Positions 1,757 to 63,642 of a stretch of 64,000 nucleotides of DNA are shown one piece after another. Position numbers and translations under genes: made by a program. The DNA is from Membranipora membranacea (taxonomy: Eukaryota > Bryozoa > Gymnolaemata > Cheilostomatida > Membraniporidae): contig OU612073.1 in assembly GCA_914767715.1 (NCBI GenBank), forward strand, positions 7,070,001 to 7,134,000. The letters run 5' to 3'. Under the pieces are notes generated by a model. It saw only the letters and a list, made by a program, of their open reading frames with translations. It was not told the DNA's origin and made no database searches. How positions within the stretch are numbered: the stretch's first letter is position 1; each line of letters opens with the position of its first letter.

Positions 1757-2389
1757 CTACTGGTTGATGTCAGCATAATCATCACAACTATTCTTGTGCA
1801 CCTCAACTTGGGCCACGGTTTGCTGTTGAGGATAAAAGACTTTAAGATGTCTTCGTCCCCTACAAGGCATAGGTGGTGTACTAGGTATTGAATGTACTCT
1901 CTGTCGAGAGAAATCTATTTGTGTTGAATCTTGCTGTATGTGTATACCCCTTTTACTTAATTTATGGGATATAGATTTCATCAAATTAGGCGAGGGACAC
2001 CTAAAGCTATTACTTGATAAGGATTCAGTGGCTGAGTTGTTGCTGAGGTCCTCTTCTTGCTGCAGCGCACCTTTAGCCTCTGTTTCACACTGGGTGTTAT
2101 TTTGGTTGACACTAACAATGCTCAACATATCATGCTCGTCTATTTTACTGTAATCATTGTATGGATCAGTAGCTTCTATCGACTCCTAATCGTGAGCAGG
2201 GTCTATGTGATTATCACCAGTCGGGTTATCTGTGGTACTCGCTGATTCTGAAAGATGAGAAAAAGAAACATAGTCAGCAACAAAATCCAGAGAACATTAG
2301 TATCAATTGTATGATTGGGCAAGTGAGTGAAGCAGTGGGCTATATTTTATTGCATTCAATAATTACCAACTCCAAAACCTGCAAATCCA

Positions 2390-2606
2390 CACGTTGTAGT
2401 GACAAGTGCGTCATCACAACTGACAACCACTTGATCCTCTTGACAATGTCACCACTAATGCATATTAATGACTACGGTTTGGATTTCTAATCACTAAATT
2501 CAGACTCGTATATAAAACTTAGAAGCAAGGAATGAGATAGCTCAGTATAAGACTGGCAACCATTCAACAGCCAAACTTTCCGCTATACCTGGTTATTCTG
2601 CATATA
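2390..2606 (+). promoter_or_regulatory. Promoter of nested secreted gene A
   Basis: A block shared by all four nested genes precedes the start codon. It has a CRE/ATF-like gtgcgtcatcac (2406-2417), accacttgatcctc, an octamer/homeobox-like atgcatattaatga (2458-2471), and a TATA box tatataaa at 2509-2516, 98 bp before the ATG. It lies in the receptor A intron on the opposite strand. The factor names are inferred from motif shape only. Confidence 0.55.
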
Positions 2607-3320
2607 ATGAGGACAGTCACTGGCATACTATTGATGCTCATTTTACAAATCGCTCTCTACTATGGACATCCTTTTGAATCATGGAATCTACGGAAATGCG
2701 AGCATGATAATAAAATAACCGGTAAGTAAGCTTGTGATTGTTGAATTATTTTTTTAAAACTGAATAATTACGTATATATGTGATGTTGCACCTGCCATGA
2801 TTTGGGCAGCTAATGCAAGGTAAGATGTTGTTGCTGTTATTGTTAAATTATCATAATTATAAAAGAAAACAATAATACTACAATTAATGTTTTTGTGCTT
2901 CTTTAGTCTACTGCTTAAGTTATGCTCCAGCTAACAACTGGTCAAATTTTATAAGGAAGCTTGCCTAAGTTTAATAAAGATCAATACAAGATGTAAAAGC
3001 CTCAAGTTTTTTTGCAGATTGAAATTCGCCTCAGTGGTTTCAACAGTATCGCGCTTTATCTATTTTCAGAAATATACAGGCTCAGGCTATTAAAAACAAT
3101 AGGCGGCCCCCGCTGTGATGATGCATGTGACCTTTTCAATGTCAATGGAAAACAAATCCCTGCGTTCCTTAGCTGGGAGGATGATATATGCAGTTGTGAG
3201 CTCTGTCCTGAGGACTTCATGGGTCCAGATGAAATGAAACTCTTTTTACACTACACAGGCTGTAAGACATTGAGAGACTTGCAGAAAGACACACCATATG
3301 GACAATACTACTGCCTATAA
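2607..3320 (+). CDS. Nested small secreted 8-cysteine protein, copy A
   Basis: Two exons, 2607-2721 and 3070-3320, joined by a GTAAGT...CAG intron in phase 1, encode 121 residues. The product opens MRTVTGILLMLILQIALYYG, a clear signal peptide, then has one cysteine in exon 1 and seven in exon 2 (CDDAC, CSCELC, TGC and the near-terminal YYC). It ends YYCL. I do not recognise the family. Size, secretion signal and even cysteine number suggest a disulphide-bonded extracellular ligand or effector. The gene lies wholly inside the intron before the tail exon of receptor A, on the opposite strand. The 251-nt second exon is the same length in all four copies. Function is unknown; a partner role for the host receptor is inference. 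Confidence 0.85.
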
Positions 3321-6300
3321 ATCTGACAATGTTGTCCTTATAAAATTTGACAATTGATTATCAAAAATTAATTTGGTTGATGGCTGAAGATTATGTCTTA
3401 CAGATGCACTCTTTTCTATACATCTAATTGTAATTATTAGTAGATTAATTGTAACTTAGTATTAAGAAATCATTATTAGTTATAGATCTTTTATTGCCCA
3501 TTGTGTTTTCCAGTTTTGGCTGTGGAAGGGTAAATGACCACTTTCAATAATGATAACAAAACAATTTTTCGTATTTTGCTCTCCGATATGTTAATAATGT
3601 CTTTTTGAAAAACTCCTCGCATTCTCTCATCACATAGTAGATAGGCTCGCTAGTCAAATAATAAACTGAATGAATTTTGTATCATCACATACACATACCT
3701 GGTCCAATGCTCGTATTTGAGAGTTTATTGCAAACCCTGGTGACTACAGTTACACCTCTTAGCCTGCAAAAAAAGAGGCAAGAAACAAGGATTATGTGAA
3801 GCTCACTGGTTTAAGTTTCAGCCATTGCATCTTTTATTGATCACACGGGAATTGGTGAAATCACAACCAAGGCTCAAATTAGTCCCCCTGGTTATGATAA
3901 AACAGAGGGTGGGCTGCCCCTAAAGAGGGACGCAAGTTGCCCGGAGTCCTCATACTGAGAGTGTGATACATCCTAGTAAACTAGAATGCATCCTAGAGGT
4001 GAGGCCATGGTGGACCTCCTAATCGTAAGTTTGCAGCAAGCTGCCAGAAACTGAAACAGGCACTAATCAGCCATTGGTAGTGACACTTTGATCTTAGCCA
4101 ATAGGCTCAAATTAGTCTGAGACCTTGCCTCTGGCTGTTACGGGCTAACATCCCTACTGGCAAGGATATGAATACCAATAATAAATTACCCATATGCCTA
4201 ATCATCTTCAACAATGAGGCTGGGCTCATCTTATTTTTTTAATCAGAAACAGACCAACACAATGCTGCCATAACTATCAGCTTGGAGCAATATCTTATTG
4301 ACGCGCCGCTAACAAAAGCAAAGTCATCCTCCATTGTACAAAGGACATAATTCTTACTTCATGATTTAATCCTCAAGGAAAAGCCGGGGTTATGTCAATT
4401 TAACTGCAGCAGTATAATTTATTTTTAAATCTTACTTCCCTGTGAAGTAGAAATAGCAGAGTAAAAGTATTATGACTAGTGATAAGCTCAATGTCACTCC
4501 AAGTACTATAATAATAACGATCTGACTGTGAGTAAATCCATTGGAATCTATAAAAAAATGTTGATAATTATGATTTGTGAAACCTCAAACGGTAGATATT
4601 GTTATTTTAGATTGATAATGATTGGACATTTAATTTTGTTATTTAATCCATTGTGCTATTTCCCATCTATGAAGAACTACCCTGTTTGATGTCTGTCATC
4701 CTCACTAGTTGAAGTGTTTTTCTTTTTAACACATACCAGAGATGGGTTCCATTTTAAATCTTGGCATTTGAATAGGTCAGACTCAAGGTCGTACCCAGGA
4801 CTGCAAGAGGCGTAGTATTCCATGGACTCGAACGATCCAACATGGCTCAGTTTGTCAAGATTGGCTATGCTACTGTCACACCACTCCACTGTAAAAATTC
4901 ATTAGAGCAATAATTATATTGGTGCATCATTTGGATTTGCATTTATTTGTTTAATTCAACGATGGGTTATAATATTTAAATGCAAATGCAGTAGCAGAGA
5001 TAGTCGAGGCATGCGGGGGGGGGGGGGGCGGGATGGGGGTGGTTTTGTTTTTAACCAGTTTTATTGCTTTCAAAACTTCTAATTGACCTACTATTATATC
5101 GTATGCGGACCAGTTCACCATGATCCTCGACTCTATCCATTCTGCTGTACAGCATAATTGGGGCATCACCTGGAAATGGATGTGGAATTCCCTTGATAGA
5201 TCTATCTGAGTTGTATAGCTGGCGAACACGCTGATTCTGAGTCTGATTCTGAGGTTGGGTCCTCATGCTGAATTTTTTTTGTACCAGATGTTGGCATGTC
5301 AACAAACTCTAGATCCATGTTGACGATTGCAGTTAAAGGTAATCCACTGATTGTTTTATATAGGGCATCAGATTGATTTCCACGCTCATGCCGTCCTTTC
5401 AAGTTGGAAAAGTCTGTTATATACCCCTGAGGATGTACACTAGCATCAATTGAGCTGTCGAACTGCTGGCTCAACATAACAAACACAGGATAAACTGTAA
5501 AAAAAGTGTTCAATAATCTACACATGCTCAATACAAGAAAAAAGTATTTGCAGGAGGAACAGAATGCAATAAAAATTTAATATTGAATTCCACCTCAGCT
5601 AGCCAACAAAAGTGGCACCTGATTTTGGAACATACTCTAACTAGCTTAACTAAAGTCTAGCTAATATTTTCGATCCTCTAGGACACATACAGACCTGCTC
5701 ACAGATCAAAGTACACAAAAGATGTCATTCCATGCAGCTGTATTAATTCTAAACTTGCACTCATGCGTCGCAATATTTACTACACAGATTTTTGCATATT
5801 GTATCAACGTTGATACAATTAACAAAATGGGCGAATAATAATGTATTTCAAGTGGAGTTTTTACTGTTGTACCATGTAGAGGGAAACAACAAACCCATAA
5901 CTACAGTTTTTGTCTTGGGTAATAAGATAACATAACCCTGAGATGTTGCCACAAGTCCTACCTTTAAATGTGATGTTAAACCACGGCATGTGATTATCAA
6001 CTTGAAGAGTCAGCACAAGTTCTTTGACGAAATGTTCCTTCTGCTCAGAGCAAATCTCACTTTCTTGGTCAGTTGTGATGACCTTATGGCGCAAGCATGT
6101 CCGACTTTCACCATGATGATTGAACACTATGAAACTGTTTTTGCTCCGCCCTCTAATTAGAACCTTGCAAACCTGACCAGCATTGGTCCTGTAGTCGCCA
6201 TTGCCAGAAACTCCTCCCAGTGTCATTCCCTCTTCCACTGTGTCCAGACCCTCCAATGTGATGATTTGTGCATCATCAGACGAGGTGCCACAAAACTCTG

Positions 6301-6703
6301 CTGTGTTTTTCCTGTATGTGGCACCTGGCAATGATAATTTTAATCTTTGCACAGGGGGTTACAATAAAACAGAAAAAGGACAATGAGTTAATTTGCTGGC
6401 CTCACCCCTTCAGAAGGTTTTTGATTGAATTTAAATTAAATTGAATTTATTTTCCAATTCTACTAAAAAATATAACATATTGTCATCTTCTCGATAGGAT
6501 CATATGGATCATCAACGTTGTGAAAGAATGCAAAAAAGCAGACCCTAACAATTTAGCGATACATGATTAATGTGTTTTGACTTATTTATCTGTACTATTG
6601 AACCATGACAATTAATAGAGTTACGACCTACGTACCTTGAGCTGAGAGTAATCCGTTAAGAGCTATCATTATTACGAGGATTCTTGTGTTGCCTCCAATC
6701 ACC

Positions 6704-7389
6704 CTGAAATAATCGTTCAAAATTTATTTAGGTTTTTTCAAAAGAATGAACAAGCAAAACACGGAATGAAAACGACAGTTTTCTAGCAAATAGTCTGCCT
6801 TTCTTCTCTCTAACATGAGTCAAGACTGGCTAGTATCAATTAATATCTTCAATAAACAAGCTTGGAGACTGGTCGGTTGCATTTCATGCACATCTAATAA
6901 TTATCTGATTAAAAGATATAGCTATAGACAACTCTGAAATGATAAAATTTAGTAAAACGTAGTACATTAGTTAAGGTTATGATACCAGCGTTGTCCGACT
7001 TTGACATTTGATATATCGTTGGAAAGCTAATAGAACACTGATTCTTATAATATTGGTTCTGTCATGACGTCATGTCATGGCGTTGTGCTTTATTGATAAA
7101 AGGCAGGATAATCGTCTTTGAGGAGGACTTTTTAGGATGATGTGGTGCAGATACTATGGTTCATATCATACTGCATAATGTTTACAAGAAGCCTCTGAAG
7201 CATCCATGAGCGGCAAGTTCTGGATCCTGTGGCATTAAGCACCAGAGGAAAATCCATCTTTTTATCAAATTTTTTTTTTCGAATTCCTCACATACGAAGC
7301 CGCTTTGATGAAGCATAGTGCAAACAGGACATGCATACAGAATATGTCACTGCATATCAGTTTTCCCCGAATTGTGCACCTCATATTTT
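6704..7389. other. Region 5' of receptor A, homology break
   Basis: Homology to the unit B upstream region runs from the signal exon to about 6965, then stops. The next 420 bp have no counterpart upstream of B, C or D that I can see. They include a cgttggaaagcta motif similar to one near 27760 and a palindromic tgacgtcatgtcatg. The first coding exon and promoter of receptor A therefore seem to be missing. No gene is supported. Confidence 0.5.
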
Positions 7390-8455
7390 ATTTTTTATCG
7401 TCCAGATCAGCTTTTATTATCAGAGAACATGTCTTGCGTCAGTTTGAAATGGAAACTGCAGTGGAATTTTTTTCATGACACAATTCATGATCACAGCCAG
7501 CCAACGGGAAATGAGATGATTATAACCAATATGCATCTGTGATTACAGCTGCATAGCATTAGTGCAATCTCATAGATTTTTGGATGTGCTGATAATATTG
7601 AGGCATTCCAATGGTCAAATCAAGCAAAATGAAAAATGGAAACAGAAATCCGCTTTATCCTTATCTTTCTCGCTGTCATTAGAGATGACAATTTTAAAAT
7701 ACCATTGATGGCTACATGCAATTCTATTATCACAGTGCCAATTATGTAATAAATACAACATCGATTTTAAGCCAAGATTCATGATCCCCTCCCCCCAAAA
7801 AAACCCCGCAAGTCTTGTATAAGAACATACATAAAGATTTCTGTCATTTAATTAAAAAATTTTAAAAAAGCGACTGTAGATTAACAATAAAAAATATATA
7901 TTCGTGCATATGTATATAAATCAGAATCGAGTGTGATAATATTAGGATGATAATAATGTGTTCATAATCGGTAATATATACTTGTGATAATTTAACTTTG
8001 CTTAGACTCTCAAAATATTTCCGAATACATGAAATCCAGCTATCAATTGTGACTAAATCACCAAACCTGCTGCTCATTGCAGCAGGATTATTGATGTTCA
8101 TCAGTTGTACTCATCATAGCATATATTTGACATACTCAGCAAAAACGCCGTTAAGATGACAATTAATACCAATAAATGCATTTAAAAATAAAAATATCAG
8201 ATGAGATTGAAAAGTAACAAACTGATACTGTAGTCTCTCATCATGACAATCAATGCCTTGTTATTTTGTTTGTTTCGAATAGTGTTTATGTTACAAAGAA
8301 AGGTATGCCATAATATCACACAGAATTAATAAAATATTAAGATTATTAAAAAAAGGTGTTGTCCTAAATCCCTGATTATAAATATCATAATAATTTATAT
8401 TTAATGCACATCTCAGGAGTTGTCAAATACTGTTTAATAAGAGGACAACTCTTTC
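7390..8455 (-). repeat. Inverted copy of the unit flank repeat
   Basis: This is the reverse complement of about 1-980: it ends in ctcaggagttgtcaaatactgtttaataaga, the mirror of the window's first bases. It includes the conserved poly-A/C and cagcaggattattgatg blocks. Its left edge (gatcagcttttattatcagagaacatgtc) matches the region near 9820 and 36060. The 79-residue minus-strand open frame at 7862-8101 is repeat sequence and is not called. Confidence 0.7.
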
Positions 8456-10639: not shown

Positions 10640-10771
10640 AAAATTTGATGAATAAATATTCAGTTCCACCTATACAGCTGTGTTGGCAGGTTGGACTTTT
10701 TGAATTGCTGGGGGATTATTCATCGTTGAATATATTCTTATGCGCTCAATTCGTCTGTTGAATACACACCT
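10640..10771 (+). promoter_or_regulatory. Probable promoter/5' UTR of receptor B
   Basis: The 130 bp before the receptor B start (cctatacagctgtgttgg through cacacct) are nearly identical before the unit C copy, where the ATG itself has become ATA. Conservation and position suggest the proximal promoter or leader. No clear TATA box was identified. Confidence 0.35.
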
Positions 10772-11969
10772 ATGAGGTCAATCATGTAAGTATTATTAAC
10801 TACGTTATGCTAAAATTTTATCATTTCGGAGTTGTCCTCAGCCATACCTTCGAATCAGATCATTATTAGGTGCGCTTGACAAGCGACTGACCAAGTTTCT
10901 TCATTGTCTTTACTTATGTAAGGTAGAGGAAAAGGCAGAGCATTTGCTAGAAAAGAATGGTTTTCATTCCGTGTGTTGCTTGTTCATTCTTTTGAGAAGA
11001 CCAATTAATAATTTTGATGATTATTTCAGGGCGATTGGAGGCACCACAAGAATTCTCGTGATAATGATAGCTCTCAACGGATTACTCTCTGCTCAAGGTA
11101 TGTAAGTCCTAGCTCAATTGTGATGGTTGCGCAGAGTAGAGATAAATGAGTCAAAACACAAACATCTATCGCTTAATTACTACGAATTGTTTCTTTGCTT
11201 TCTTTCATAGCGTTGATAAACATTGATGCTTCATTCACCCTGTACTATCGAAAAAGAAAAATTTCTTTTTTCTAACGGAATCGGAAAATAAATTTACACA
11301 AAAACATCCAGCAGACAAGCGGCCGGCAAATTAAACCAATTTCTTCCTTGCGTATCATTGTAACCACCCTGTGCATATATTAAATATATGATTTTAAGGT
11401 GAAATGCACAGCAGGCACACAGCGATGTTTTGCGGCTCCTCAGCTCATGATACAGAAACTATCACGCTGGAGGATCTGGACACAGTAGAAGAGGGAATGA
11501 TACTGGGAGGAATTTCTGACAGAAGCGACTACAGAGCCAATGCTGGTCGGGTTTGCAAGGTTCTAATTAGAGGGCGGAGCAAAAACAGTCTCATGGTGTT
11601 CAATCATCATGGAGAAAGTCAGGCATGCTTGCGCCATAAGGTCATCACAACTGACCAAGAAAGTGGGTTTTGCACAGAGCAAAAGGAACATTTCGTTGAA
11701 GAACTTGTGCTGACTTTTCATGTTGGTACCTGTATGCCGAAGTTTAACATCACTTTTAAAGGTAGGATTTGAAGTGTCATCCTAGTTTGCCAGTGTTTGA
11801 GTTGCCCCCCTCTACTGACATGCCGAAGGCATAAAGGCTTTTTATCACTTTAGAAAGACCGAAGCAAAATGTAATCTGGCAGCTAGTTTTGCAGTAGGTA
11901 TCCGATATTATAACACTGAAAAATTCGTAGCACTTTTGTGTAAACATTAAATATAGTGTTAGAAATTCC

Positions 11970-12595
11970 TCCCCCTTCCCATCTATGAGGTATCAAAGCC
12001 TAGTGGTGAACCAGCCTAATAAACCTCCACTTCTATCTACTTTAGAAAACGATAAAAGGTTTAAGAATTAAGTTACCTATTTACCATGTCTCTGTCATTG
12101 GAAATATATTTATTTTTGACTTCTGTGAAGAAAACAGCAATTTAAACCACTGCTGCCACACTGCCAAATGTGCGCTTATAGAATTCTGGTTAGCTCAAAA
12201 CTAATAAAATGATGCTGTAATCTCAGCATTGTCACCTAATGAGCAAATAATTTGCACAAATTGATTGTCAAAAATTAGGGTATGATATTAATTAGCTACC
12301 GACACCCCCCCCCCCCCCCCCCCCGTGTCACCGTCATTACTAGTGCAAACTGTACACGTCATAAGCTGGTGCGTACATTTCAGGCCCTGATTTTGAAGAT
12401 CAGTTTGTGCAAATCTTTTGTCCGTTAGGTGACAATAATGAGATTTAAGTCTCAATTAATTATCTTGGAGCTATGCAGAATTCAATGACCACAAAATTGC
12501 ATGAGTGGCAGCAGTAGTTTAAAGTATTTGTAAGTAGTAACTTATTGGCCTGGCGCACCACTGGGCTTTGATATCTCATAGATATTAAAGGGGGA
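11970..12595. mobile_element. Foldback MITE-like element in receptor B intron
   Basis: Left tcccccttcccatctatgag and right ctcatagatattaaaggggga are inverted copies, and pairing continues inward for well over 100 bp (caaagcctagtggtg with caccactgggctttg; accactgctgccac with gtggcagcagtagt; ttgtcacctaatg with gttaggtgacaa). The centre holds a long poly-C run (12304-12324). No transposase is present. It is not visible in the matching introns of A, C or D. Confidence 0.7.
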
Positions 12596-13683
12596 CAATT
12601 CCAACCCTATAAATAATTCTTATCTGGAAGTTTTTTGAACTTTGTCAGTGTAAAAATATTGCATAACTACCGCAGAACAAGCTGCCAGACTGTATATGGT
12701 TTTGGATCTGCTGTAGCTTTTAATAATATTATGAATATCATAATGTCTAATGTTACTTCTACTTGGTATCAATAACAAAATTAAAATGGCTTTTTTATTG
12801 TTAAAATCAAAACACTATTGTGCAATGTTATGCAATCAGCCTTTGATGGGCTTGAAATAGAAAAAAAATGATAACAAAACCTTGCAGTTCAGAAGATATA
12901 CATATAGATTGGCATTAATCTGGATGATTTGAATTCTCAGCAGAACCTTGTATGTTACTGCATGTACATAATTATTTTTTTTTTCTTCTCAGTTTATCCC
13001 GTGTTTGTTATGTTGAGCTATCAGTTAGACAGCTCAATAGATGCTAGTGTACATCCTCAGGGGTATATAACTGACCTATCAAACTTGAGAGAGCGGCATG
13101 AGCGTGGAGATCACTCTGATGCCCTATATATATCAATCAGTGGATTACCTTTAACTGCAACTGTCTACATGGATCTGGAGTTTGTTGATATGCCAACATC
13201 TGGCACAAAAAAATTTAGCATAAAGACCCAACCTCAGAATCAACGTGTTAATCAGATATACAACTCAGAAAGGTCTATCAAAGGTATTCCACAACAGTTT
13301 CAAGGTGATGCGCCAATTTTGCTGTACAGCGAAATGGAGTTGCTGATTACGGTGAACTTGTCCGCATCCGATATTTTGGTAGGTCAATAAGATGTTAGTA
13401 TTGTTAGAGTGAACAAAACTAACAATTTGTAACAGGTCCGTTATTAAGTAGCACTCATCTCCAAAAGTCTGGTTTTGTGCTTTATGATGCTCAAACCGCA
13501 AAGAACGGAACAACCGGCTTGAAATAAATGTATCAGCCTTATTAAAACAATGCATGCATGATCAACAGGTATAATTGATACTCTGATATATTATTACAGT
13601 GGAATGGTGTGACAGTAGCATAGCCAATCTTGACAAACTGAGCCCTGTTGGATCGTTTGAGTCCATGGAATACTACGCCTCTT

Positions 13684-13764
13684 GCAGCCCTGGGTTTGAC
13701 CTTAAGTCTGACCTTGAGTCTGACCTTGAGTCTGACCTTGAGTCTGACCTTGAGTCTGACCTAT
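13684..13764 (+). repeat. 12-bp in-frame minisatellite in sushi exon (DLES)n
   Basis: The unit gaccttgagtct is repeated about five to six times after the third-position GF of the sushi domain, encoding DLES repeats between the second and third cysteines. Copy A has a single unit at this place. The sushi exon is 255 nt here and 207 nt in A, a difference of exactly four units, so the frame is kept. Confidence 0.9.
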
Positions 13765-15290
13765 TCAAATGCCAAAATTTGAAATGGAACCCATCATTGG
13801 AATGTATTAAAAAGAAGAACACTACAACGAATGAGGATGACAGACATCAAACAGGTGAGTTCTTCATGGATGATTAATCAACAAATTTAATTTCCAATAA
13901 TTTTCGATCAAAACTCCCAGTCACAGTCTCCAAGAAGTGCTTGTTCTTTGTATTGCACTTCTTGGACACTGTGACACCATAATGCAGAAAATGGGGGTTA
14001 CCTTTCCTTATTGGGGCACTTTTCCAGTTCCACCATCAATAATTCATGCCAAGTAGAGCATTGAAGTTTTCTTTTCATTTCATTTCTTCTCCATTTTTCA
14101 CAGTTGACTGTCTGACTATTACATTCATTTGGTCTTTGGCTAATTTTTAGATAACCATATTAAATTTCAAATCATTATCAATCCAAAATAAAACAGTCTA
14201 AGATTTGAGGTTTAAAAAATCATAATTATTAATGTTTGTTTTCTATTTAGGCACATATGGTTACACACACAATCATATCATCATCATTGTAACTCTAGGA
14301 GTGACGCTGAGCTTATCACTAGTCATAATACTCTTATTCAGCTATTTCTACTTCACAGGGAGGTAAGTACTATAAATACATTACGTTGTCGCTGTAAATG
14401 GGACATGATATTGAGCTTTGCTGGAGGATCAAATCATAAAACAAGAGTTATGTCCCTTTTGAACAATGGAGGATGACTCCACTTTTGTAATCATCATTGG
14501 CATTGAACCTTCTCAAAGCTCCCATTTTCCTTCCAAAGACAAATTAGAAATCTGATAGTTATAGCAAAATTATGTGAGTCTGTTTCTGATTCAAAGAAGT
14601 CCAACTTCATTGTTGAAGAGAATTAGGTGTATTGCTCATTCATTATTGGTATTTATGTTCTTGCCAGCAGGGTCTCAGACTAATTTGAACCCTTGTTTTG
14701 ATTTTATCCAGTCTTTTGTTATCAATAAAGGATGCAACGTCCGAAACTTGAACCAGTGAGCTTCCCCTAATCCTTGTCTCATGGTGAAAATTTTACAGGT
14801 TAAGAGGAGTAATCTTAGTCACCAGGGTTTGCCATGAACTCTCGAATACAGGCACTGCACAAGGTATGTGTATGTTATGATCAAACTTCATTAAATTATT
14901 ATTTGACTAGCAGGCCTATCTATCATGTGATCAGAGATTGCAAAGCATAATTAACAGCATAGAAGCTGTGAAACGATTTGACTTTATTATCCTCATTGAA
15001 AATGTTTGTATATCTTTGCATAGCCACAACAACAACAAAATTGTTCAAAAATTCAGAGATCAAAGTTCAAAATGAATAAAAGATCTATTTTTTGATCTTC
15101 ATAAAAAGTATTTATTTACCCTTGCATAGCCACAAAGATAAAATACAATCATTAAAATATCTACTATAACTTTAAAATGATTACTATTAGCAATATTGAC
15201 TATAAGAAGTTTAGATGATAGTGTTTCTGTATCTGTACAGCCATCAACCAATCGATTGGTGTAAATTTGATGAGAACAACATTGTCAGAT

Positions 15291-15898
15291 TTATAGGCAG
15301 TAGTATTGCCCATATGACGTGTCTCTTTGCAAGTCTCGTAACGTATTACAGCCTGTGTAGTGTAAAAGGAGTTTCATTTCTTTGGGACCCATGAAGTCCT
15401 CAGGACAGAGCTCACAACTGCATATATCATCCTCCCTGCTAATGAACGCAGGGATTTGTTTTCCATTGACGTTGAACAGGTCACATGCTTTGCCACAACG
15501 GGGGCCACCTATTGTTTTCAACAGCCTGAGCCGGTATATTTCTGAAAATAGAAGTATGATATTGTTGAAACCTCTAAGGTCCATTAAAATACAATACAGC
15601 AAAAAAACTAACGGCTTTGACATCATGTATTGATCAATACCTAGTCAGAACCAGTTGGGATCTGAAGAAATAATTGGTGGACTGAACAAAGCATCAGATA
15701 ATACAGTGGTAGTAGCTAACCTTTTTTTTGTGGCTACTGAAAGAGAATTCAACAATCACAAGCTTACTTACCAGTTATTTTGTTATCTTCACATATCCGT
15801 GGATTCCATCCCATCCAAGTATATGATTCATAATTAATTCCGTAGTGAAGGCCAATTTGTAAAATTATCAAAAATAGTACCCCGATGACTGTCCTCAT
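15291..15898 (-). CDS. Nested small secreted 8-cysteine protein, copy B
   Basis: Exons 15898-15772 and 15541-15291 are joined in phase 1 and encode 125 residues. The product begins with MRTVIGVLFLIILQIGLHYG, a signal peptide, and keeps the family pattern CGKAC, CSCELC, TGC and final YYCL. It is closest to copy A (nearly the same from EIYRLRLLKTIGGPRC on), with substitutions concentrated around the first exon-2 cysteine pair and the CNTLRDLQRDT stretch. Exon 1 is 12 nt longer than in A, C and D. The gene lies in the last intron of receptor B on the opposite strand, between juxtamembrane and tail exons. The family is not recognised. The open frame and splice sites are intact. Confidence 0.85.
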
Positions 15899-16115
15899 TT
15901 TGTTGCAGTAAAACAAGGTGTATAGATGTAAACACCGCTGTGGAATGGTTCCCAGTTTTATTGTGAGCTCTCATTCCCTGCCTCTCAGTTTCATATCAGA
16001 ATCTGAATGTAATGATGGGGAATTCTAACCTTAATCATTAATATGCATTAGTGGTGACATTGTCAAGAGGATCAAGTGGTTGTCAGTTGTGATGACGCAC
16101 TTGTTGCTAGAAAAG
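15899..16115 (-). promoter_or_regulatory. Promoter of nested secreted gene B
   Basis: Reverse-strand copy of the conserved block: gatgacgcac (16091-16100), atcaagtggt, and the octamer-like ttaatatgcatta (16038-16050). The TATA position reads catatcag (tatgaaac on the gene strand), so the TATA box is weakened relative to copies A, C and D. Confidence 0.45.
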
Positions 16116-16730
16116 GTGATTTGCAGGATAATAGTTTGGAGTTAGAACAGCTGGTAATTATTGAATGCTATGTAGACCAATGTAAGACAATGCTTCCCTT
16201 GACTCAGTAGTTTAAAATGTTACCTATTTCCATTTCCAGAATCAACGAGTACTACAGATAACCCGACTGGTGATAATCGCATCGACCCTGCTTTAGATTA
16301 TGAGTCCATAGAAGCTACCGATCCATACAACGATTACAGTAAAATAGACGAGCATGATATGTTGAGTATTACGAGTTTCAACCAGAATAACACCCAGTGT
16401 GAAACAGAGGCTAAAGGTGCGCTGCCGCAAGAAGAGGACCTCAGGAACTACTCAGCCACTGAATCCTCATCAATAAATAGCTTCCGGTGTCCCTCACCAA
16501 GCTTGATGAAATCTATATCCCATAAATTAAGTAAAAGGGGTATACACATACAGCAAGATTCAACTCAAGTAGATTTCTCTCGACAGAGAATACATTCAAT
16601 ACCGAGTACACCACCTATGCCTTGTAGGGGACGAAGACATCTTAGAGTCTTCTATCCTCAACAGCAAACAGTGACTCAAGTTGAGGTGCACAAGAATAAC
16701 TGTGATGATTATGCTGACATCAACCATTAG

Positions 16731-19009: not shown

Positions 19010-19180
19010 AAAGACCAGCTTGATTGAGAGCTCACTTATTTGTAGGTGGGAAAAAACTTTAAAAAAGTGATCGTAGATTGACAATGAAAAAAATTTAGGC
19101 GTCTGTACATAAATCAGTATTGAGTGTGATACTATTAAGAGGATAATGAGGTGTTCATATCGTTAATATATACCCGTGAT

Positions 19181-19468: not shown

Positions 19469-19990
19469 CCCGTGATAAATTAACTTCGCTTTGAACTCTC
19501 AAAATATTTCCGAATACATGAAATTCAGCTGTCAATTGTGACCAAATCACCAAACCTGCTGCTCTTTGCATCAGGATTGTTAAAATTCAACATTTGCAAT
19601 AATCATAGCATATATTTGAAATACCCAGAAAATTAATATCAATAAACCTATTCGAAAATAAAAATAGCAGATGAGATTGAGAAGTAACAAACTGATGCTG
19701 TAGTCTCTCATCATCACAATCGATGCCTTGTTATTTTGTTTGTTATATATATAGATACATCTTTTGTTGCAACAACCATCATCCGAAGATGTGCTCCCTG
19801 ATGTGCAAAGAAATCTAAAAAAAAAAGTTATGTTACAACTTAAGGTTGTCATAATATCACACAATTTTAATTAAATTTTTTAGATTATTAAAACAAGGTG
19901 TTATCCCAGATCCCTGATTATAAAAAGGATAATATATCTCATGCAAATCTCAGGAGTTATCAAATAAGGTTTAATAAGTGGACAACTCTT

Positions 19991-22466: not shown

Positions 22467-24968
22467 GGCGATTGGAGGCACCACAAGAATTCTCGTAATA
22501 ATGATAGCTCTCAACGGATTACTCTCCGCTCAAGGTATGTAAGTCTCAACTCAATTGTGATGGTTGCAGAGTACAGATATATGAGTCAAAACACAAGCAT
22601 CTATCGCTCAATTCCTTAGGACTGTTTCATTGCATTATTTCACAATGTTGATAAATATTGATGCTTCATGCGACCCTGTACTATCGAAAAAGAACAATTT
22701 TGTTTTCAAACAAAATTGGACAATAAATTCAATCAAAAACCTCCAGCATAGGAGTGGCCGGCAAATTAAACAAATTCCTTCCTTGCATATCATCGTAACC
22801 ACCCTGTGTAAATATTAAATATATATCATGACTTTAAGGAGAAATACACAGCAGAAACACAGCGATGTTTTGCAGCTCCGCGGCGCATGATACAGAAATC
22901 ATCACGCTGGAGGATCTGGACACAGTAGAAGAGGGAATGATACTGGGAGGAGTTTCTGGCAGTGGCAACTACAGAACCAATGCTGGTCGGGTTTGCAAGG
23001 TTCTAATTAGAGGGCGGAGCAAAAACAGTCTCGTCGTGTTCAATCATCATGTAGAAAATGGTGCATGTTTGCTCAATAAGGTCAACACAACTGACCAAGA
23101 AAGTGAGGTTTGCTCTGAGCAGAAGGAACATTTCGTCAAAGAACTCTTCAAGTTGATACTCACATGCCGTGGTTTAACATCACATGTAAAGGTAGGATTT
23201 GGAGCATCATCGTAGCCCACATCATTGCTGTGGACATATATGACCTACGACAAAAGCGATCATTGTCGGTTTCGAGTCTTCTTCTACTTGATGCCAATTG
23301 CAACAATAGAAAGAAAAGGACTTAAATCAGCCATTATCGATAAATTAATTCTAACACTGATGTGCAATTCAATAGTTAGGCATAAGCAAGCAACATTAAC
23401 ATTAAACAACTTTGAAGTACTTCACGGAAGTACAGAACTATGGTAACAAGACCTTGCAGCAATGCATACAAGTTTAGAATTTAGAATGAGCGAGCGGGCG
23501 GGCACTGTATGTAAACTGCAATGTATATAATTATAATTATTTATTATCTTTTAGTTTATCCTGTGTTTGTGATGTTGATGCATCAGTTAAATAGCTCAAT
23601 TGATGATAGTGTACATCCTCAGGGGTATATAACAGATCTATCTAACTTGAGAGAGCAGTACGAGCATGGAAATCAAACTGATGACCTACGAATAACGATC
23701 AAGGGATTACCATTAACTGCAATTGTCAACATGAATCCGGAGTTCGTTGACATGCCTGAATCTGGTGAGAAAATGTTCAGCATACAGAACAAACTTCAGC
23801 AAACTCGAGATCAGCGATACAATGAACTATACTTCTCGGATAGGTCTATCAAGGGAATTCAGTATCAGTTTCTAGGTAATACCCCACTTTTGCTGCACAA
23901 CAAAATGAGTAGGGTCAAGGATTATGGTGAACTTATCCGCATAAGATATTATGGTAGGTCAATTTAAATTCTGTTTAGTTGCTACATGCTGCAATTCGTT
24001 GTAGGTGACTATTTTAATTTCGTTGCCCTCATTGTCTTTTTTTTTCATGACAGTTTGTGGTTGGGTTTTTCAGTAAAAAAAATCCCCAATAAATGTATAG
24101 CGATAATGCATAGGGAAATCTGATGCTCAGACCTAAACTCAAAGGACCCATCCATTGGTGTAAAAAGGAGATATCAGTTTCGGTGAAGTTTGAGCTTATT
24201 ATTGGACCTTTGCCGTAGAAAGCAAGGCATGTATGGAGTATGCTCAGCCAATAATTATTTTACTCTTAAATTACAGTAGAATGGTGTGGTAGTAGCATAG
24301 CCAATCTTGACAAGCTGAGCCCTGTTGGATCATCTGACTCCAAGGAATATAACGCCTCATGTAGTGCTGGGTTTGAGCTTTCCCACAGCAACCAATTCAA
24401 ATGCGAAAATTGGAAATGGAACCCAACACTGGAATGTCTTAAAAAGAAGAACTTATCAGCAATTGAGGATGACATACACAATACAGGTGCGCATAATATA
24501 CATTGATTGACAAATTTTATCTCCAATCATATCATGATTGCCATAAAAATAAGCAATAACTCTCTTTTATCAACTATTTAATTTTCGTCAACATTAATGA
24601 AAGTAAAAGGATCAATAAAATTCATATTGAATGTTTATAAATCTTCAAACATCAAATGAAGCTTTCTATTTTTTGTCTGTAATTTCAGTGCAAGGTCATA
24701 AATAACTCCTTGATTTCAGTGCATCGTCATAAATAAAAAGCAATTGACATTTTCTATTTAGGTTCAGATGTATTTACTCACAGTCAGATTATTATCATTG
24801 TTTTACTTGGAGTGACGTTGTGCTTATTATTAGTCATAATACTTTTATTCAGGTTAGTATGAATATTTCCTAATCGCCATAGAAAATGTAAGAAGCAAGA
24901 GGTTATGTCCTTTTTTTCACATTGGAGGACAACTTCTGTTGCAAAAGATGTGAGTTTTGACCACAATG

Positions 24969-25012
24969 TTAAACCAGGGAGAGTGGATGGGTATCCCACC
25001 CTCCCTGGTTAA
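24969..25012. mobile_element. Short TTAA-flanked hairpin
   Basis: The sequence runs ttaaaccagggagagtgg, a short centre, then ccaccctccctggttaa: an imperfect palindrome with TTAA at both ends, in the TM/juxtamembrane intron of receptor C. Unit B lacks it at the matching place. The size and TTAA ends suggest a minimal MITE or the fused termini of a piggyBac-like element. The accctccctgg motif recurs near 57410. Confidence 0.45.
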
Positions 25013-25660
25013 ACACAATGGCAGGTGACTCAGTCATCATCTGGAAAAAGATTGAACCTTCTGTGATTGACTGAGTGATAGTGCAAAGTCAGGTATTGAG
25101 GCTTTTATAAGTATTTCTCTGCATTCATAGAGGGAACAAACTTGTTCCAATGAATATTAATACCCATAAATTTGTCAGCTGGATTAATGGGCAAGCAAGT
25201 AGTAAACTCACTGGACCCCAGGGTACGATTGAATCCGAAAACTTGTGATCAATAAGAGATCTATTTTCTTTCAGGTTAAAAGGAGTGACTCGAGAGACAG
25301 AGGTCTGCAAAAAACTGCCAGAGCCCAATATTTCCCAAGGTATGTAATTTTCTTAATACAAATTATCGGAATAATAGTCGTCCCTCAGATCTGGAGGCTT
25401 CACTGAAATTGTAATGAGTGATCAAAATACAAAAATTAATTGATTAATTTCTTTGAAAAGAATCCATTTATTCCCTGCATACTTCTCAGTCACAATGACA
25501 ATTAATGATTATGTGAAAAAGAAATAGCAACTTTTTGCAATACAATAATTTATTAGTATTAGTATGACATAATCTACAACTATTAATGTTCATAAAATAA
25601 TATTGATAAAATAGTGCATTGTTAGCAAATATCAATTTAATGAGCAAATTATTGTCACAT

Positions 25661-26408
25661 TTAGAGGCAAAAGTAAGGTCCATACTGTGTGTTCTTCTGC
25701 AAGTCTTTTAACCACTTACAGCCTGTGTAGAGTTTGAACAGTTTCAATTCTTTTGGACCCTTGAAATCCTCTGGGCAGAGATCACAGCTGCATATACCAT
25801 CTACGTCGCTAAGGAATGCAGGGATTCTTTTACCGTTGACGTTGAAGCGGCCACATGCAGCGCGGCAATCGGAGCCAGTTATTGCCTTAAACGCCCTGAG
25901 CCTGTATTGTTCTGAAAATAGAAAATGTACATTTATAACGACTCATAGACCAAGTTAATCTTGGACTGACAGACAGGAGATTTGTGTTTGGGCCACTGAT
26001 GCTAGACGAATTCTTAAACACTCTCATTCGCTATATGGCATCGCATCTATGAACTTAACACAACCCTAGGACAAACGTTAATATTTGCTACAGTTTAGTT
26101 TAGCTAGTTTTGGAGTGTCTTAATATTTGTTAGGAGTAATTTTCATTAGCTAAGTAATTAGCTTATTTAAAGTAAAGAGTCCGACTAAATGAAAGTGAGC
26201 GATAAATTTTGCTGTTGAAGCATGTGCGAAATGGTGATTCTTTACCCTGCAAAAAATTTTGCGCCCTTAGGTTATATATTCAAGCTAACTTACCATCTAT
26301 TTGGTTATCCCATTCACATATCCTTGGATTCCATGTCAATAAAGTATATCCGTAGCAAAGCTCAATTTGTAAAATGAGCATAAATAGTACGCCGGTGACT
26401 GTCCTCAT
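25661..26408 (-). CDS. Nested small secreted 8-cysteine protein, copy C
   Basis: Exons 26408-26294 and 25911-25661 are joined in phase 1 and encode 121 residues. The product opens MRTVTGVLFMLILQIELCYG (signal peptide), then WNPRICEWDNQID. The second exon begins EQYRLRAFKAITGSDC and keeps CRAAC, CSCDLC, TGC and final YFCL. There is an extra cysteine in the predicted signal region, as in copy D. It is closer to copy D than to A or B. It lies on the opposite strand in the last intron of receptor C. The frame is intact although the host receptor is damaged. Function is unknown. Confidence 0.85.
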
Positions 26409-26620
26409 TTTGTTTCAGAATAACAAGGTGTATAGATGTACACACCGCTGTGGAATGGTTCCCAGTCTTATACTGAGCTATCTCATTCCTTGCTTTGTTT
26501 TATATATGAGTCTGAATGTAGTGATTGGGAATGCAAACCTTATTCATCAATATGTATTAGTGATGACATTGTCAAGAGGATCAAGTGGTTGTCAGTTGTG
26601 ATGACGCACTTGTTGATAGA
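26409..26620 (-). promoter_or_regulatory. Promoter of nested secreted gene C
   Basis: Reverse-strand copy of the conserved block: gatgacgcac (26600-26609), atcaagtgg, catattgatg-type octamer remnant near 26548, and a TATA box in ttttatatatgag (about 26499-26508), roughly 95 bp before the ATG. Confidence 0.5.
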
Positions 26621-27147
26621 AAAGAGGATTTGCAGAATAAAAATCTGGAGTCAGATCAGTTGGTAACTATTGAATGATATGCAGACCAATGAGGTATCCA
26701 ACCCATTAATTATCCCCAATGGCCACTTAAGACATTGCTTCCATGACTCAGTAGTTTAAAATGTTACCTTTTTCCATTTCCAGAATCAGCGAGTACTACA
26801 GATAACCCGACTGGTGATAATCGCGCCGACCCTGCTCACGATTATGAGTCAATAGAAGCTACCAAGCCATACAACGAGTACAGTAAAATAGACGAGCATG
26901 ATATGCTGAGCATTACCAGTTTCAACCAGAACAATGCCCATTGTGAAATGGAGGCTAAAGGTGCGCTGCAGCAAGAAGAGGACCTCAGGAACTACTCAGC
27001 CACTGAATCCTCATCAATAAATAGCTTCCGGTGTCCCTCACCAAACTTGATGAAATCTATATCCCATAAATTAAGTAAAAGGGGAATACACATACAGCAA
27101 GATTCAACTCAAGTAGATTTCTCTCGACAGAGAATACATTCAATACC

Positions 27148-28165
27148 CTGTAGAGCTGCCTTGCATTTGTCGCTGATGGTCTCGTTGGCAGACATTGCGA
27201 TATCAGTAGGGATACTACTGATTATCTGTTGGCATTTCCTGTGTGCACTATGGTTAATGAAAGCGGCTTCGTATATGATAACTTTCAAAAAAACTTTGTT
27301 TGGCCACAATAATGGTCTTTTGGACAGCATATTTGACGTTATACAAAAGTTGCGAAAATATTAGCTGTATTCGAGAGGCTACTGTTTTCGCAATATGCAA
27401 GCCAATTCCTTGAAAGTCAATGTGTATGACATTTGAAGTGTACTCTAAGAGAAAATCACAATTAATTTTGTTTCAAGCCTATGATCTGTTCTGAATTAAT
27501 GATTGAAATTTCACATATTTTCACGGCTTCACAAAAAATGAAGCATTGTATGGCGTGACGTAAAAAGTCAATTTAGACTAGTCATATATCAAAGAAAATC
27601 AAATTTTACGATGAACACAATCTCTATGTTTACATTCCACCTGTTTTGAAATTTTGTGCAATTAATTTGACACCCCCATCTGCATCTCATTTCCCCCCTA
27701 AAATGACACAACGTCATCGAATCAAGTTTTTGGTCAGGTATTCATTTTCAGTAGCTCGGCAGCTTTCCAACGGTATATGTTATGTTGATATTCGGATCGG
27801 TCTTTGACATTACCTTAATAGTATACATTGAACCGTTAGCGGAGCTGACTCTTAGAGAGGAACTTATGGCTGCTCTTGTCTTGTCTCTGCTTGTTTTATC
27901 CTTGACAAGGAGGCCAAGCCCTTTAATCTTAACAGGGAGGACTTTCTTGATGATTTTGTATCGAGCCGCATCTAGGTTGATAGTGATTTGCGGGGTTTTT
28001 GAGGTGCCCTTTATTTCTATGTCTGATTTTAATTGTTGTGCCCTACTGACCTTTTTTTTTAATCTATTTTTTTTAATAAATTTTTTTAATTTATTCAATT
28101 TAATTTAATTTAATTATTTATTTTAATTAATTTGAATTTTTTAATTAATTTTTTTTTTAATTTAT
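27148..28165. other. Foreign segment replacing the end of receptor C
   Basis: At about 27148 homology with tails A, B and D stops. For the next kilobase the sequence is unrelated to the other units, until flank-repeat homology resumes near 28318. A minus-strand frame at 28098-27748 encodes a lysine-rich 116-residue peptide (many KK, then a beta-like IKGLGLLVKDKTSRDKTR stretch), and another minus frame lies at 27330-27109. I recognise neither. The 28040-28165 part is almost pure A/T homopolymer runs, as at the end of an inserted retrocopy. This may be an insertion or a rearrangement junction. Confidence 0.45.
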
Positions 28166-30120: not shown

Positions 30121-30769
30121 CTAATGGTTGATGTCAGCATAATCATCACAACTATTCTTGTGCACCTCATCTTGAGTCACTGTTTGCTGTTGAGGATAAA
30201 AGAATTTAAGATGTCTTCGTCCCCTACAAGGCATAGGTGGTGTACTGGGTATTGAATGTATTCTCTGTCGAGACAAATCTTCTTGAGTTAAATCTTGCTG
30301 TATGTGTATACCCCTTCTACTTAATTTATGGGATATAGATTTCATCAAGTTTGGTGAGGGACACCTAAAGCTATTTATTGATGAGGATTCAGTGGCTGAG
30401 TTGCTGCTGAGATCCTCTTCTTGCGGCAGCGCACCTTTAGCCTCTGTTCCACACTGGGTGTATTCTGGTTGACACTCACAATGCTCAACATATCATGCTC
30501 GTCTATTTTACTGTAATCGTTGTATGGATCGGAAGCTTCTATCGACTCATAATCGTGAGCAGGGTCGGCGCGATTGTCACCAGTCGAGCTATCTGTAGTA
30601 CTCGCTGATTCTGGAAATGGAAAAAGGTAAAATCTTAAACTTCTCAGTCAAGGGGAGCATTGTATTGACAGGCCATTGGGGATAATTAATGGCTAGGATG
30701 CCTCATTGGTCTACATAGCATTCAATAATTGACAGCTGTTCTAACTCCAAACTATTATCCTGCAAATCA

Positions 30770-30987
30770 CCCTTTCTAGCAACAAGTGCGTCATCACAAC
30801 TGACAACCACTTGATCCTCTTGACAATGTCATCACTAATGCATATTAATGACTAAGGTTAGAATTCCCAATAACCACAGTCAGGTTCTGATATAAAACTT
30901 AGAAGCAAGGAATGAGAGTTCACAATAAAACTGGGAACCATTCCACAGCGGTTTTTACACCTATACACATTGTAATACTGCAACGAA
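30770..30987 (+). promoter_or_regulatory. Promoter of nested secreted gene D
   Basis: Same block as copy A: gtgcgtcatcac (30786-30797), accacttgatcctc, atgcatattaatga (30838-30851) and TATA gatataaaac (30889-30898), 97 bp before the start codon. It is conserved although the surrounding receptor is a pseudogene. Confidence 0.55.
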
Positions 30988-31777
30988 ATGAGGAAAGTCA
31001 CCGGCGTACTATTTATGGTCTTTTTACAAATTCAGCTTTGCTATGGATATTCCTTTATTGGACCAAATCCACGGATATGCGAGTGGGATAACCAAATAAC
31101 AGGTAAGTTAATCTTATACTAATAACCTGGAGGTACGAAACGTTTGCAGGGGAAGAGATCACCAATCACCATTTCGCACATGCTCTCTGTAGCTCTCATC
31201 AGTGAAATCTATGGCTCCCCAACATTTATTCCTCCTCTTAATTTTAAATGAGCTTAAAACTTAGCTTGTGACAAGTAGTGCACTCCAAAACTAACTGAAC
31301 TATACTGTGGCTAATATCTATTTTTCTAGAGCTGTGTTATGTTCACACATGTTGCGAAATATAATGAATAATAAGAGTCTTTGAGAATGTTCTTGTTTGG
31401 GTGTGATCAAAAGTGAAAAGTTACTAGACTTTTTTTAGAGAAATTTAAAATCAGTGGCCTCAACGCCTATAAGCTCAAGATAAACTTGGAATGTGAGTTT
31501 AAAAAAATGTACTTCTTTTTTTTTAGAACAATACAGGCTCAGGGGGTTTAAAGCAGTAAGTAGCTCCAGCTGCAGTGAGGCATGTGACGTGTTCAACGTC
31601 AATGGTGGAATAATCCTGTCTTTCCTAAGCTACGTAGATGGTATATGCAGCTGTGATCTTTGCCCCGAGGACTTCATGGGTCCTGATGAAATGAAAATCT
31701 TTCTTCAATTCACAGGTTGTGAGAACTTGAAAGACTTGCAGAAAAACACACCGTTTGGACCTTACTTCTGCCTCTAA
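30988..31777 (+). CDS. Nested small secreted 8-cysteine protein, copy D
   Basis: Exons 30988-31102 and 31527-31777 are joined in phase 1 and encode 121 residues. It opens MRKVTGVLFMVFLQIQLCYG (signal peptide), then NPRICEWDNQIT. Exon 2 begins EQYRLRGFKAVSSSSC and keeps CSEAC, CSCDLC, TGC and final YFCL. The stretch between the first exon-2 cysteine pair and CSCDLC is the most divergent of the four (NGGIILSFLSYVDG). The host receptor D has at least six lesions, yet this frame, splice sites and promoter are intact, which argues for selection on the secreted gene alone. The family is not recognised. Confidence 0.85.
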
Positions 31778-34700
31778 ATATTTTGCTGGACAATTTTATT
31801 TGCTAACACTGCACTGATGGCCGTAGATTAAATCATACTAATTGCACTCTCTTGTTGACCGATTGACAGATTGTAGTTTATATTATGAAAAATTGACTCC
31901 TTTTTTCTCACAATCATAACTGTCATTGTGACTATGTAGTAGTAAATAGATTCTTTTCAATTAAAGTAATCATAAATAAAAGTTTGTTATGTGATCACTG
32001 TCCATTTTTTCGTAGGTACTTTGATGATAATTATGGTTGGTTACATGACTCCTTGCCATCTGAAGAACAACAATTTCTTCGCAATTTGCATAATTAAAAC
32101 ATACCTTGCGCAGTATTGGTCTCTAGCAGTTCATGGCAGGCCTTAGTCACTGGAATTACTCCTCTAAACCTGCAAGAAAATAATGAGACATGGTTCAAGG
32201 ACAGCTCTGCGGTTTGGTTGTCAGACATTGACATCTTATTAATCACATGTTTTTGGATTCAATCATACTCTGAGGTCCGATGAGTTTAATACCTGCTTTG
32301 GTTGTAATTGCCCATTTTTCCAGTGAAGAAATTCATGAATACCGATATTGACTAAAACAATCCCTCTGTGCATGCAGAAAATATTTTAAAAAGCTGTGTA
32401 TCAAGGCAAGTTTTGCAATATCACTCCAACCTCACGGAAGGATCAAACATGATCTTGAAAGTGACTGACTCACATGCCTTTGAAGGGAAGAGTAAGTGCA
32501 CAGCAAATTCCAGTATTAAAAGTAGAGTCGTCCTCCCATGAGCAAAAAGGACATAACTCTTAGTACTTGTTCATCCTACGATGAAAAGACAAAAATTCAT
32601 ACTCACCTCCCAGTCAAGAAGAAATAACTGAAGAGAAGTATTATGACTAATAATAAGCTCAACATCACTCCAAGTAATACAATGACTGTGAGTAAATCCA
32701 ACTGAATCTATAAACAAAACGCCAATTCTTGTTGTATAAGAATGCACTGAAATCGCAGACAGCACGATTCATTAGATAATTTTAGATTTATAAACATTTG
32801 GTATGAACATTAAACTTACATTTTGTTTCATGAATTATGGCAACAGAATATAGTACTTGGTGGGAAAAAGTTATCGCTGACTTTTCATGATTGGAGATAT
32901 TTTTTCATTTTGATATAAATGTGCTCACCTGTTTGTGTATGTCATCCTCGAGTGGTGATAAGGGCTTCATTTTAAGACATTCCAGAGTTGTGTTCCATTT
33001 CCCACTTTTGCATTTGAATTGGTTGCTGTGGTTTGAAAGCGCAAACCCAGCACTACATGTGGCATTATAATCCATTGAGTAAGATGATCCAACATGGATT
33101 AGCTTGTCAAGATTGGCTATGCTACTGTCACACCGTTCCACTGTAATTAAAGAGTGAATTCATTACTGGCTGAGCATAGACCATACATGTTTCAATTTAT
33201 ATGTCAAAGGTCCTGCATAATGTTTCTAAGCCAGTTGCTAGGTTCTTTGAGGTTTAACCATAAAAGAATGGAATCAGATTTTCTCTCACTTTCGTTATAC
33301 GTTTATTGGGGTATTTTTTAAACCCATAAGTGCAAAGTGAAATATCAAACACAAATGTCACCTACAATAAATTGTAGCTAGTGAACAAGCTTTTAAATTG
33401 ACCTACCAAAATATTTGATGCGGATAAGTTCATCATAATCCTCAACTCTTCTCATTCCGTTGTGCAGGTAAAGTGGGGTATTGCCTTTAAATTGAAGCGG
33501 AATTCCTTTGCTAGATCCATCTGAGAAGTATAGGTCATGGCTTCGCTGATCCCGAGGTTGTTGAAGTTTGTTCTTTATGAAAAACCTTTTCCTACAAGAT
33601 GCAGGCATATCAACAAATTCAAGATCCATGTTGACGGTTGCTGTCAATGGTAATCCCTTGATAGTTATCGCTAGGTCATCAGTTTGATTTCCACGCTCAT
33701 ACCGCTCTCTCAAGTTAGATAAGTCAGTTATATACCCCTGAGGGTGTACACTTGCATCTATTGAGCTGTTGAACTGCTGGCTCAACAAAGCAAACACGGG
33801 ATAGACTGAAAAATAATAAATTACTATGTACATGCAGTTAACATACAGAGCCCTGCTCCGAAATCTAATTACTCAAATCAATGCCTTTCCTTCTGTATTT
33901 ATTGCTAAACTTGCTGGTAATGTATTTCAAGCTTTGTGAATGAAAGAGCTGCTTGCTCCTACCAAGCTGTCGCATTGCACAACAGAGTTACAATTAATTT
34001 AACAATAACGGCTGAAAAGCAATTTTAGTCATTTTCTCTCAATTGTTGCAATTGGCATCAAAGTAGAACCCACAGTGAGCGTCTTCGTCATAGGTCATAC
34101 ATCCCTCCAAAAATAATGTGTGTTACAATTATGCTCCAAATCCTACCTTGAAATGTGATGTTAAACTATGGCATGTGAGTATCAACTTGAAGAGTCAGCT
34201 CAAGTTCTTTGATGAAATGTTCCTTCTGCTCAGTGCAAGAACCACTTTTTTGCTCAGTTGTCATGACCTTATGACGCAAGTATGCCTGACTTTCTCCATG
34301 ATGATTGTACACCATGAGACTGTTTTTGCTCTGCCCTATAATTAGAACCTTGCAAACCCGACCTGTAGTGGCTCTGTAGTCGCTGCTGTCAGAAACTCCT
34401 CCCAGTATCATTCCCTCTTCTACTGTGTCCAGATCCTCCAGGGTGTATAGTTTCTGTATCATGAGCTGCGGAGCCGCAAAACATCGCTGTGTGCCTGCTG
34501 TGTATTTCACCTTGAAATCATATATTTAATATTTGCACAGGGTGGTTACAATGATACGCAAGAAAGAAATTGGTTTAATTTGCTGGCCCCTCCTCTGCTG
34601 GATGTTTTTGTTTAAAATTATTTTCCGATTCCGTTTGAAAAAAGAAATTTGTTCTTTTCGATAGTACAGGGTGGATGAAGCATCAATATCAGCTGTGAAA

Positions 34701-34870
34701 GAAAGCCAAGAACAGTCCGTAGTAATTTAGCGACAGATGTTTGTGTTTTGACACATTTATCTGTACTCTTCAACCATCACAATTGAGTTAAGACCTACAT
34801 ACCTTGAGCAGAGAGTAATCCGTTGAGAGCTATCATTATTGCGAACACTCTTGTGGTGCCTCAAATCGTC

Positions 34871-63615: not shown

Positions 63616-63642
63616 GTATGACCAGTTTTCATAGGAACGAAT

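Follow-up and report, generated by a model that had tools for sequence, protein, structure and literature searches.

Four copies of a nested antisense gene pair in a bryozoan, with an open inner gene and a damaged receptor-like outer gene

The first 35 kb of a 64,000-nucleotide stretch of the Membranipora membranacea genome (the window; GenBank assembly GCA_914767715.1, contig OU612073.1, positions 7,070,001 to 7,134,000, forward strand) contain four units, A (1757-6703) and D (30121-34870) on the minus strand and B (11030-16730) and C (22467-27364) on the plus strand. In all four a two-exon gene for a small cysteine-rich protein lies antisense between the 65-nt juxtamembrane (JM) exon and the tail exon of a receptor-like gene model. 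What we describe, as it stands, is a nested pair that has been multiplied as one whole; its inner gene has stayed open in each unit, while the enclosing gene is broken in four different ways. The account that we favour, with somewhat more confidence than doubt, is that of a lineage-specific nested pair that spread by duplication of the whole unit, with the inner gene kept, the outer copies decaying or skipping exons, and the nesting itself passive.

Each receptor-like model has seven exons: a signal-like exon (68 nt), a first ectodomain exon (363-nt class), a second ectodomain exon termed dom2 (399-nt class), a sushi-like exon (207-255 nt), a membrane-span (TM) exon (91-112 nt), the JM exon and a tail exon (491-nt class). 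Splice sites were read in the DNA by eye and then checked by script. The splice sites of the JM exon are canonical in all four units; the exon is entered in phase 2 and left in phase 1, and is preceded by a TM exon of 112 (A), 112 (B), 91 (C) or 101 nt (D). The tail exon is compatible in frame with it throughout, has a canonical acceptor at its start and opens without an ATG. These regularities argue against a gene-model error, in which the tail exon would be part of another transcript and the inner gene would merely lie between two genes. We consider such an error very unlikely, even though the failure to find a receptor start exon speaks for it. Alignment and a scan for an ATG plus a GT[AG]AG donor within 2.5 kb did not reveal an exon that could begin a long signal peptide; the five candidates from the scan (one each in A, B and D, two in C) have no sequence in common, and the available start is an internal ATG followed by a short hydrophobic stretch. 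Agreement of exon lengths between units, reported in a preliminary description of the stretch, was confirmed for the 65-nt and 251-nt classes (all four units) and for the phases, but the 491-nt tail occurs in A and B only: that of D is 490 nt long and frameshifted, and that of C, which departs from the others past about codon 120, measures 581 nt up to its stop.

The units can be aligned through their introns and flanks; they are therefore copies of one ancestral unit and reflect one nesting event, and four paralogous copies should not be read as four observations. A tblastn search with six exon queries matched these four copies and found no fifth in the window. An inverted repeat of ∼ 980 nt (93% identical) flanks unit A (1-978 and 7459-8442), with diverged pieces between the other units, and an array of CAAGCAAGCAGG-type short repeats lies upstream of unit C (21261-21460).

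The nested antisense layout stands, but the description of the receptor needs correction. Spliced as modelled, none of the four receptors is open as far as the membrane span, because of frameshifts of +1 (A), -4 (B), -10 (C) and +1 (D) together with stops, and exon alignments show that the lesions differ between copies. Besides the shift in dom2, unit A has a TAG within its tail exon and a displaced sushi-exon donor. Unit B is shifted at the end of dom2, and its 12-nt deletion and expanded 12-nt repeat preserve the frame. This repeat is present in 5.5 copies in the sushi-like exon (13697-13762). Unit C has lost 10 nt from the first ectodomain exon and has had its tail end replaced; within the new end (27150-27364), positions 27225-27293 resemble 7273-7341 (81%), perhaps a mobile or repeated element. 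Unit D has a TAG as well as the +1 in its first ectodomain exon, is shifted by -1 in the tail and contains a TGA ahead of the internal ATG of the signal-like exon, and its losses of 1 nt in the sushi-like exon and 11 nt in the TM exon cancel each other. Sequencing error could account for the +1 of unit A, which lies in an A-run, and is an unlikely cause of the -10, -11 and -4 changes and of the two substitution stops.

The inner gene consists of a first exon of 115 or 127 nt and a second of 251 nt, joined by GT-AG splice sites, and encodes 121 residues in A, C and D and 125 in B. Eight cysteines are invariant in all four proteins and the N-terminus is hydrophobic in each, as judged by eye; the product is probably secreted. 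A TATA-like box is found at -97/-98 nt from the ATG in A, C and D (B has no match), and AATAAA or ATTAAA follows within 700 nt downstream in all four units. These signals are consistent with an independently transcribed gene, whose protein might act in extracellular defence or signalling. Ratios of non-synonymous to synonymous substitution (dN/dS) were calculated pairwise with bootstrap bounds after removal of codons with gaps or stops. For both inner exons together they range from 0.25 to 0.50, with the upper bound below 1 in all six pairs. The dom2-to-JM part of the receptor gives 0.29-0.50, again with every upper bound below 1. For the first ectodomain exon (0.55-0.81) the interval spans 1 in six of six pairs, and for the tail exon (0.24-0.67) in three of six (BC, BD and CD). 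Constraint is not evident for the sushi-TM-JM part between C and D (0.95; 0.52-2.08). Since ratios lie below 1, both genes have a coding past, and the values would also fit a receptor that has lost its constraint recently.

The history of the copies is mosaic. Among 394 informative sites over the unit, 267 support the split AB|CD, 65 AC|BD and 62 AD|BC, and equal splits cluster: 254 of 393 neighbours are equal, a value that none of 2000 shuffles attained (adjacent sites do not count as independent). In the same order, the counts are 28/11/8 for dom2, 25/0/2 for the sushi-like exon, 2/0/1 for TM, 9/4/0 for JM and 24/0/5 for inner exon 2. They are 1/12/0 for the first ectodomain exon, 2/1/7 for the tail (10 sites only) and 2/1/3 for inner exon 1 (six sites only, without a clear split). 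An AB|CD block runs from the intron before dom2, past inner exon 2 and up to inner exon 1, to about window position 15750 in unit B, and because they have this one history, dom2, sushi, TM, JM and inner exon 2 have travelled together. Copy exchange has broken up the receptor between the first and the second ectodomain exon and has probably also cut near inner exon 1 (∼ B 15750). In Ciona the nested layout blocks recombination between the partners; here the central block is linked, but re-sorting has affected the first ectodomain exon as well as the tail side, so that exchange seems not to have been prevented over the whole unit.

These data suggest a model that starts from one ancestral pair, in which the last intron of a gene for a single-pass receptor-like protein harboured a small cysteine-rich gene on the opposite strand. 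Duplication of the whole pair would have given the four copies, some in direct and some in inverted orientation. Within each, the inner gene would be a separate transcription unit whose product is the one maintained in working order. The outer receptor would have been under purifying selection for a long time before each copy in this assembly came to be frame-damaged. Because every copy is damaged, the receptors may now be recent pseudogenes or sources of shortened, exon-skipped or soluble products, and the copies probably undergo birth-and-death turnover. The nested position itself would most likely be a passive legacy of a single event, preserved by duplication. According to PMC10282587, nested genes typically account for 5-10% of genes, lower counts being attributed to annotation; the figures include 3358 of 43,615 genes for A. 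queenslandica and, for the glass sponge A. vastus, 2432 of 19,578 (12.4%). Since nested genes are so common, a single nesting event needs no special cause.

Several observations weigh against this model. The dN/dS ratios below 1 and the open exons imply that the receptor had a function until recently, and only two units, B and D, show a poly-A signal within 700 nt after the receptor tail. Taken by itself, inner exon 1 has a dN/dS interval that spans 1 in five of six pairs. With about nine lesions and the inner gene making up ∼ 18% of the coding bases, the probability of its escaping all of them is ∼ 0.17 as judged by lengths, which is not significant. Moreover, since the ectodomain exons belong to one phase class, skipping a single exon would, by computation, restore a membrane protein in three units. 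Read from the internal ATG, unit B without dom2 would encode 439 aa with the membrane span and the full tail, unit C without the first ectodomain exon 459 aa with the span and the altered tail end, and unit D without the same exon 348 aa with the span and a truncated tail. The receptors might accordingly be functional through modular splicing, the damaged members of the three 1-1 phase ectodomain exons being skipped and each copy using a different set of modules. The compensation of -1 by -11 across the sushi-like and TM exons of unit D is what would be expected if the frame through the membrane span mattered. However, unit A regains its span only by two skips (dom2 and sushi) and then meets a stop ahead of the tail motif, and on paper the same rescue works for any gene whose exons are symmetrical. 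We regard modular splicing as an unlikely explanation.

The preliminary description had instead proposed a receptor and a secreted ligand inherited as one locus. In such a recognition cassette, suggested by analogy with the v/s-Themis layout, the inner protein would bind the receptor and nesting would keep matching partners together. The AB|CD majority shared by dom2, sushi, TM, JM and inner exon 2 is in line with the proposal, and a matched pair would require just such a linked block; plain physical linkage explains it equally well. The C-D ratio for sushi-TM-JM also points in this direction. On the other hand, none of the receptor models is open, the breakpoints, one within the intron that separates dom2 from the first ectodomain exon and one close to inner exon 1 (the latter on few sites), have re-sorted parts of both genes, and amino-acid change is not in excess over silent change. 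Moreover, nested genes are frequent in any case (typically 5-10% of genes; PMC10282587), and neither the receptor nor the inner protein yielded a homologue in the searches described below. Linkage from dom2 to inner exon 2 therefore survives from the proposal, but the receptors are broken and the other parts re-sorted, and with the outer gene damaged in every copy a working ligand-receptor pair is not established. We judge the cassette improbable. A more specific version seems no less doubtful: the eight-cysteine protein would be a ligand of dom2-sushi within the linked block, with two specificity classes (A/B and C/D), signalling through the ITAM-like tail (see below) and exons that are swapped or dropped, and the broken frames would be the retired or exon-skipping copies of one haplotype. 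If the cassette were real, it would be a further animal nested antisense receptor-partner locus beside Themis and a candidate source of unknown self/non-self recognition molecules.

The layout of the Ciona self-sterility pair invoked in the preliminary description is as claimed: v-Themis lies antisense in an intron of s-Themis (PMC7018956). As in the units described here, the smaller partner gene occupies an intron of a large membrane-protein gene and runs in the opposite direction. The Ciona pair differs in using the first intron, in the C-terminal PKD channel of s-Themis, in its polymorphic alleles and in having genetic proof, whereas here the host intron is the last one, the copies are tandem paralogues, the protein families are orphans and the outer genes are broken, all described as gene models from one assembly. 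Ordinary intron-nested animal genes likewise sit within the intron of another gene (PMC10282587), but here the whole unit was duplicated into four copies with mosaic exchange between them. The pair had been presented as undescribed, and among the matches listed from the open PubMed Central (PMC) library no title or abstract opening describes it, which is weak evidence. The words 'CUB' and 'sushi' do not occur in the main text of a sponge-graft paper (PMC5450542).

The domain names given to the receptor fare unevenly. A CUB-like/sushi/TM architecture had been proposed, and the membrane-span exon is present in all four units, but CUB has neither profile nor fold support and sushi stays below threshold. 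No CUB match was obtained in Pfam (E up to 1, then up to 10) or among PDB sequences (E up to 10; the listed matches are unrelated). Against PDB sequence profiles, only unrelated matches were listed for the first ectodomain exon (best E 0.77) and for dom2 (E 0.034, a nucleoside deoxyribosyltransferase). Of the two ectodomain exons the first was folded; its AlphaFold2 (AF2) model, with a predicted local distance difference test score (pLDDT) of 32, was uninformative. Sushi (PF00084) matched below the Pfam cut-off in C (E 0.0038), D (E 0.0069) and A (E 0.048) and not at all in B, and a cEGF match outscores it in A; four cysteines of this exon are invariant in all units. The tails of B, C and D contain YESI-x8-YSKI (YxxI-x8-YxxI), which resembles an immunoreceptor tyrosine-based activation motif (ITAM); in A its first tyrosine codon has given way to the TAG. 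The motif was noticed post hoc, and the pattern arose in 274 of 20,000 shuffled versions of the B tail.

For the inner protein, no candidate with three words in common with the query was found in a set of 5.8 billion proteins, Pfam gave nothing of note, and the PDB sequence profile matches listed were all unrelated (best E 0.14). The AF2 model of inner exon 2 (pLDDT 54) was too poor for use. The composite receptor had no homologue at E up to 10 among 7997 scored candidates from the same protein set. As a control, a neighbouring ankyrin-caspase gene retrieved one relative, P0001, among 7995 scored (45% identity over half of the query); relatives are thus only thinly represented, and absence of the pair from the set is weak evidence. 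Rfam gave no matches at gathering scores. In the S-locus of Brassicaceae, a plant system, the gene for the receptor kinase SRK and that for SCR, a small secreted protein with eight cysteines, lie linked side by side. The likeness to the units here is that of a linked receptor and a small eight-cysteine gene; the common cysteine count is no evidence of kinship.

Table 1. Positions in the window of the exons and genes of the four units.
Unit	Feature	Position	Strand	Remark
A	Signal-like exon	6636..6703	-	68 nt
A	First ectodomain exon, 'CUB-like'	5962..6324	-	363 nt, open; no CUB profile match
A	Second ectodomain exon (dom2)	5092..5494	-	403 nt, +1 frameshift
A	Sushi-like exon	4681..4888	-	splice donor moved one base
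A	Membrane-span exon	4436..4547	-	
A	JM exon	3699..3763	-	65 nt
A	Tail exon	1757..2247	-	491 nt, internal TAG
A	Inner gene	2607..3320	+	exons 2607-2721 + 3070-3320, open
A	ITAM-like tail site	2141-2188		
B	Signal-like exon	11030..11097	+	
B	First ectodomain exon	11399..11761	+	open
B	Second ectodomain exon (dom2)	12993..13378	+	-4 frameshift near end, further -12 in frame
B	Sushi-like exon	13600..13854	+	in-frame 12-nt repeat expansion
B	Membrane-span exon	14251..14362	+	
B	JM exon	14799..14863	+	65 nt
B	Tail exon	16240..16730	+	491 nt, open
B	Inner gene	15291..15898	-	exons 15772-15898 + 15291-15541, open
B	ITAM-like tail site	16299-16346		
C	Signal-like exon	22467..22534	+	
C	First ectodomain exon	22839..23191	+	-10 frameshift
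C	Second ectodomain exon (dom2)	23555..23953	+	399 nt, open
C	Sushi-like exon	24277..24486	+	
C	Membrane-span exon	24762..24852	+	91 nt, earlier donor
C	JM exon	25275..25339	+	65 nt
C	Tail exon	26784..27364	+	end swapped for other sequence after ∼ 27150
C	Inner gene	25661..26408	-	exons 26294-26408 + 25661-25911, open
C	ITAM-like tail site	26843-26890		
D	Signal-like exon	34803..34870	-	TGA in long frame upstream of ATG
D	First ectodomain exon	34147..34510	-	+1 frameshift and TAG
D	Second ectodomain exon (dom2)	33407..33805	-	399 nt, open
D	Sushi-like exon	32929..33140	-	-1, compensated by next exon
D	Membrane-span exon	32607..32707	-	-11, frame restored with preceding -1
D	JM exon	32105..32169	-	65 nt
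D	Tail exon	30121..30610	-	490 nt, -1 frameshift
D	Inner gene	30988..31777	+	exons 30988-31102 + 31527-31777, open
D	ITAM-like tail site	30504-30551		

Elsewhere in the window, open reading frames (ORFs) at 41528-44094 (+) encode ankyrin repeats followed by caspase p20/p10-like sequence (Pfam Ank_2 and Peptidase_C14); in P0001, the relative of this gene, the caspase-like part precedes the ankyrin part, as judged by eye. Two ORFs at 61228-63621 (+) have Rootletin matches below the Pfam cut-off.

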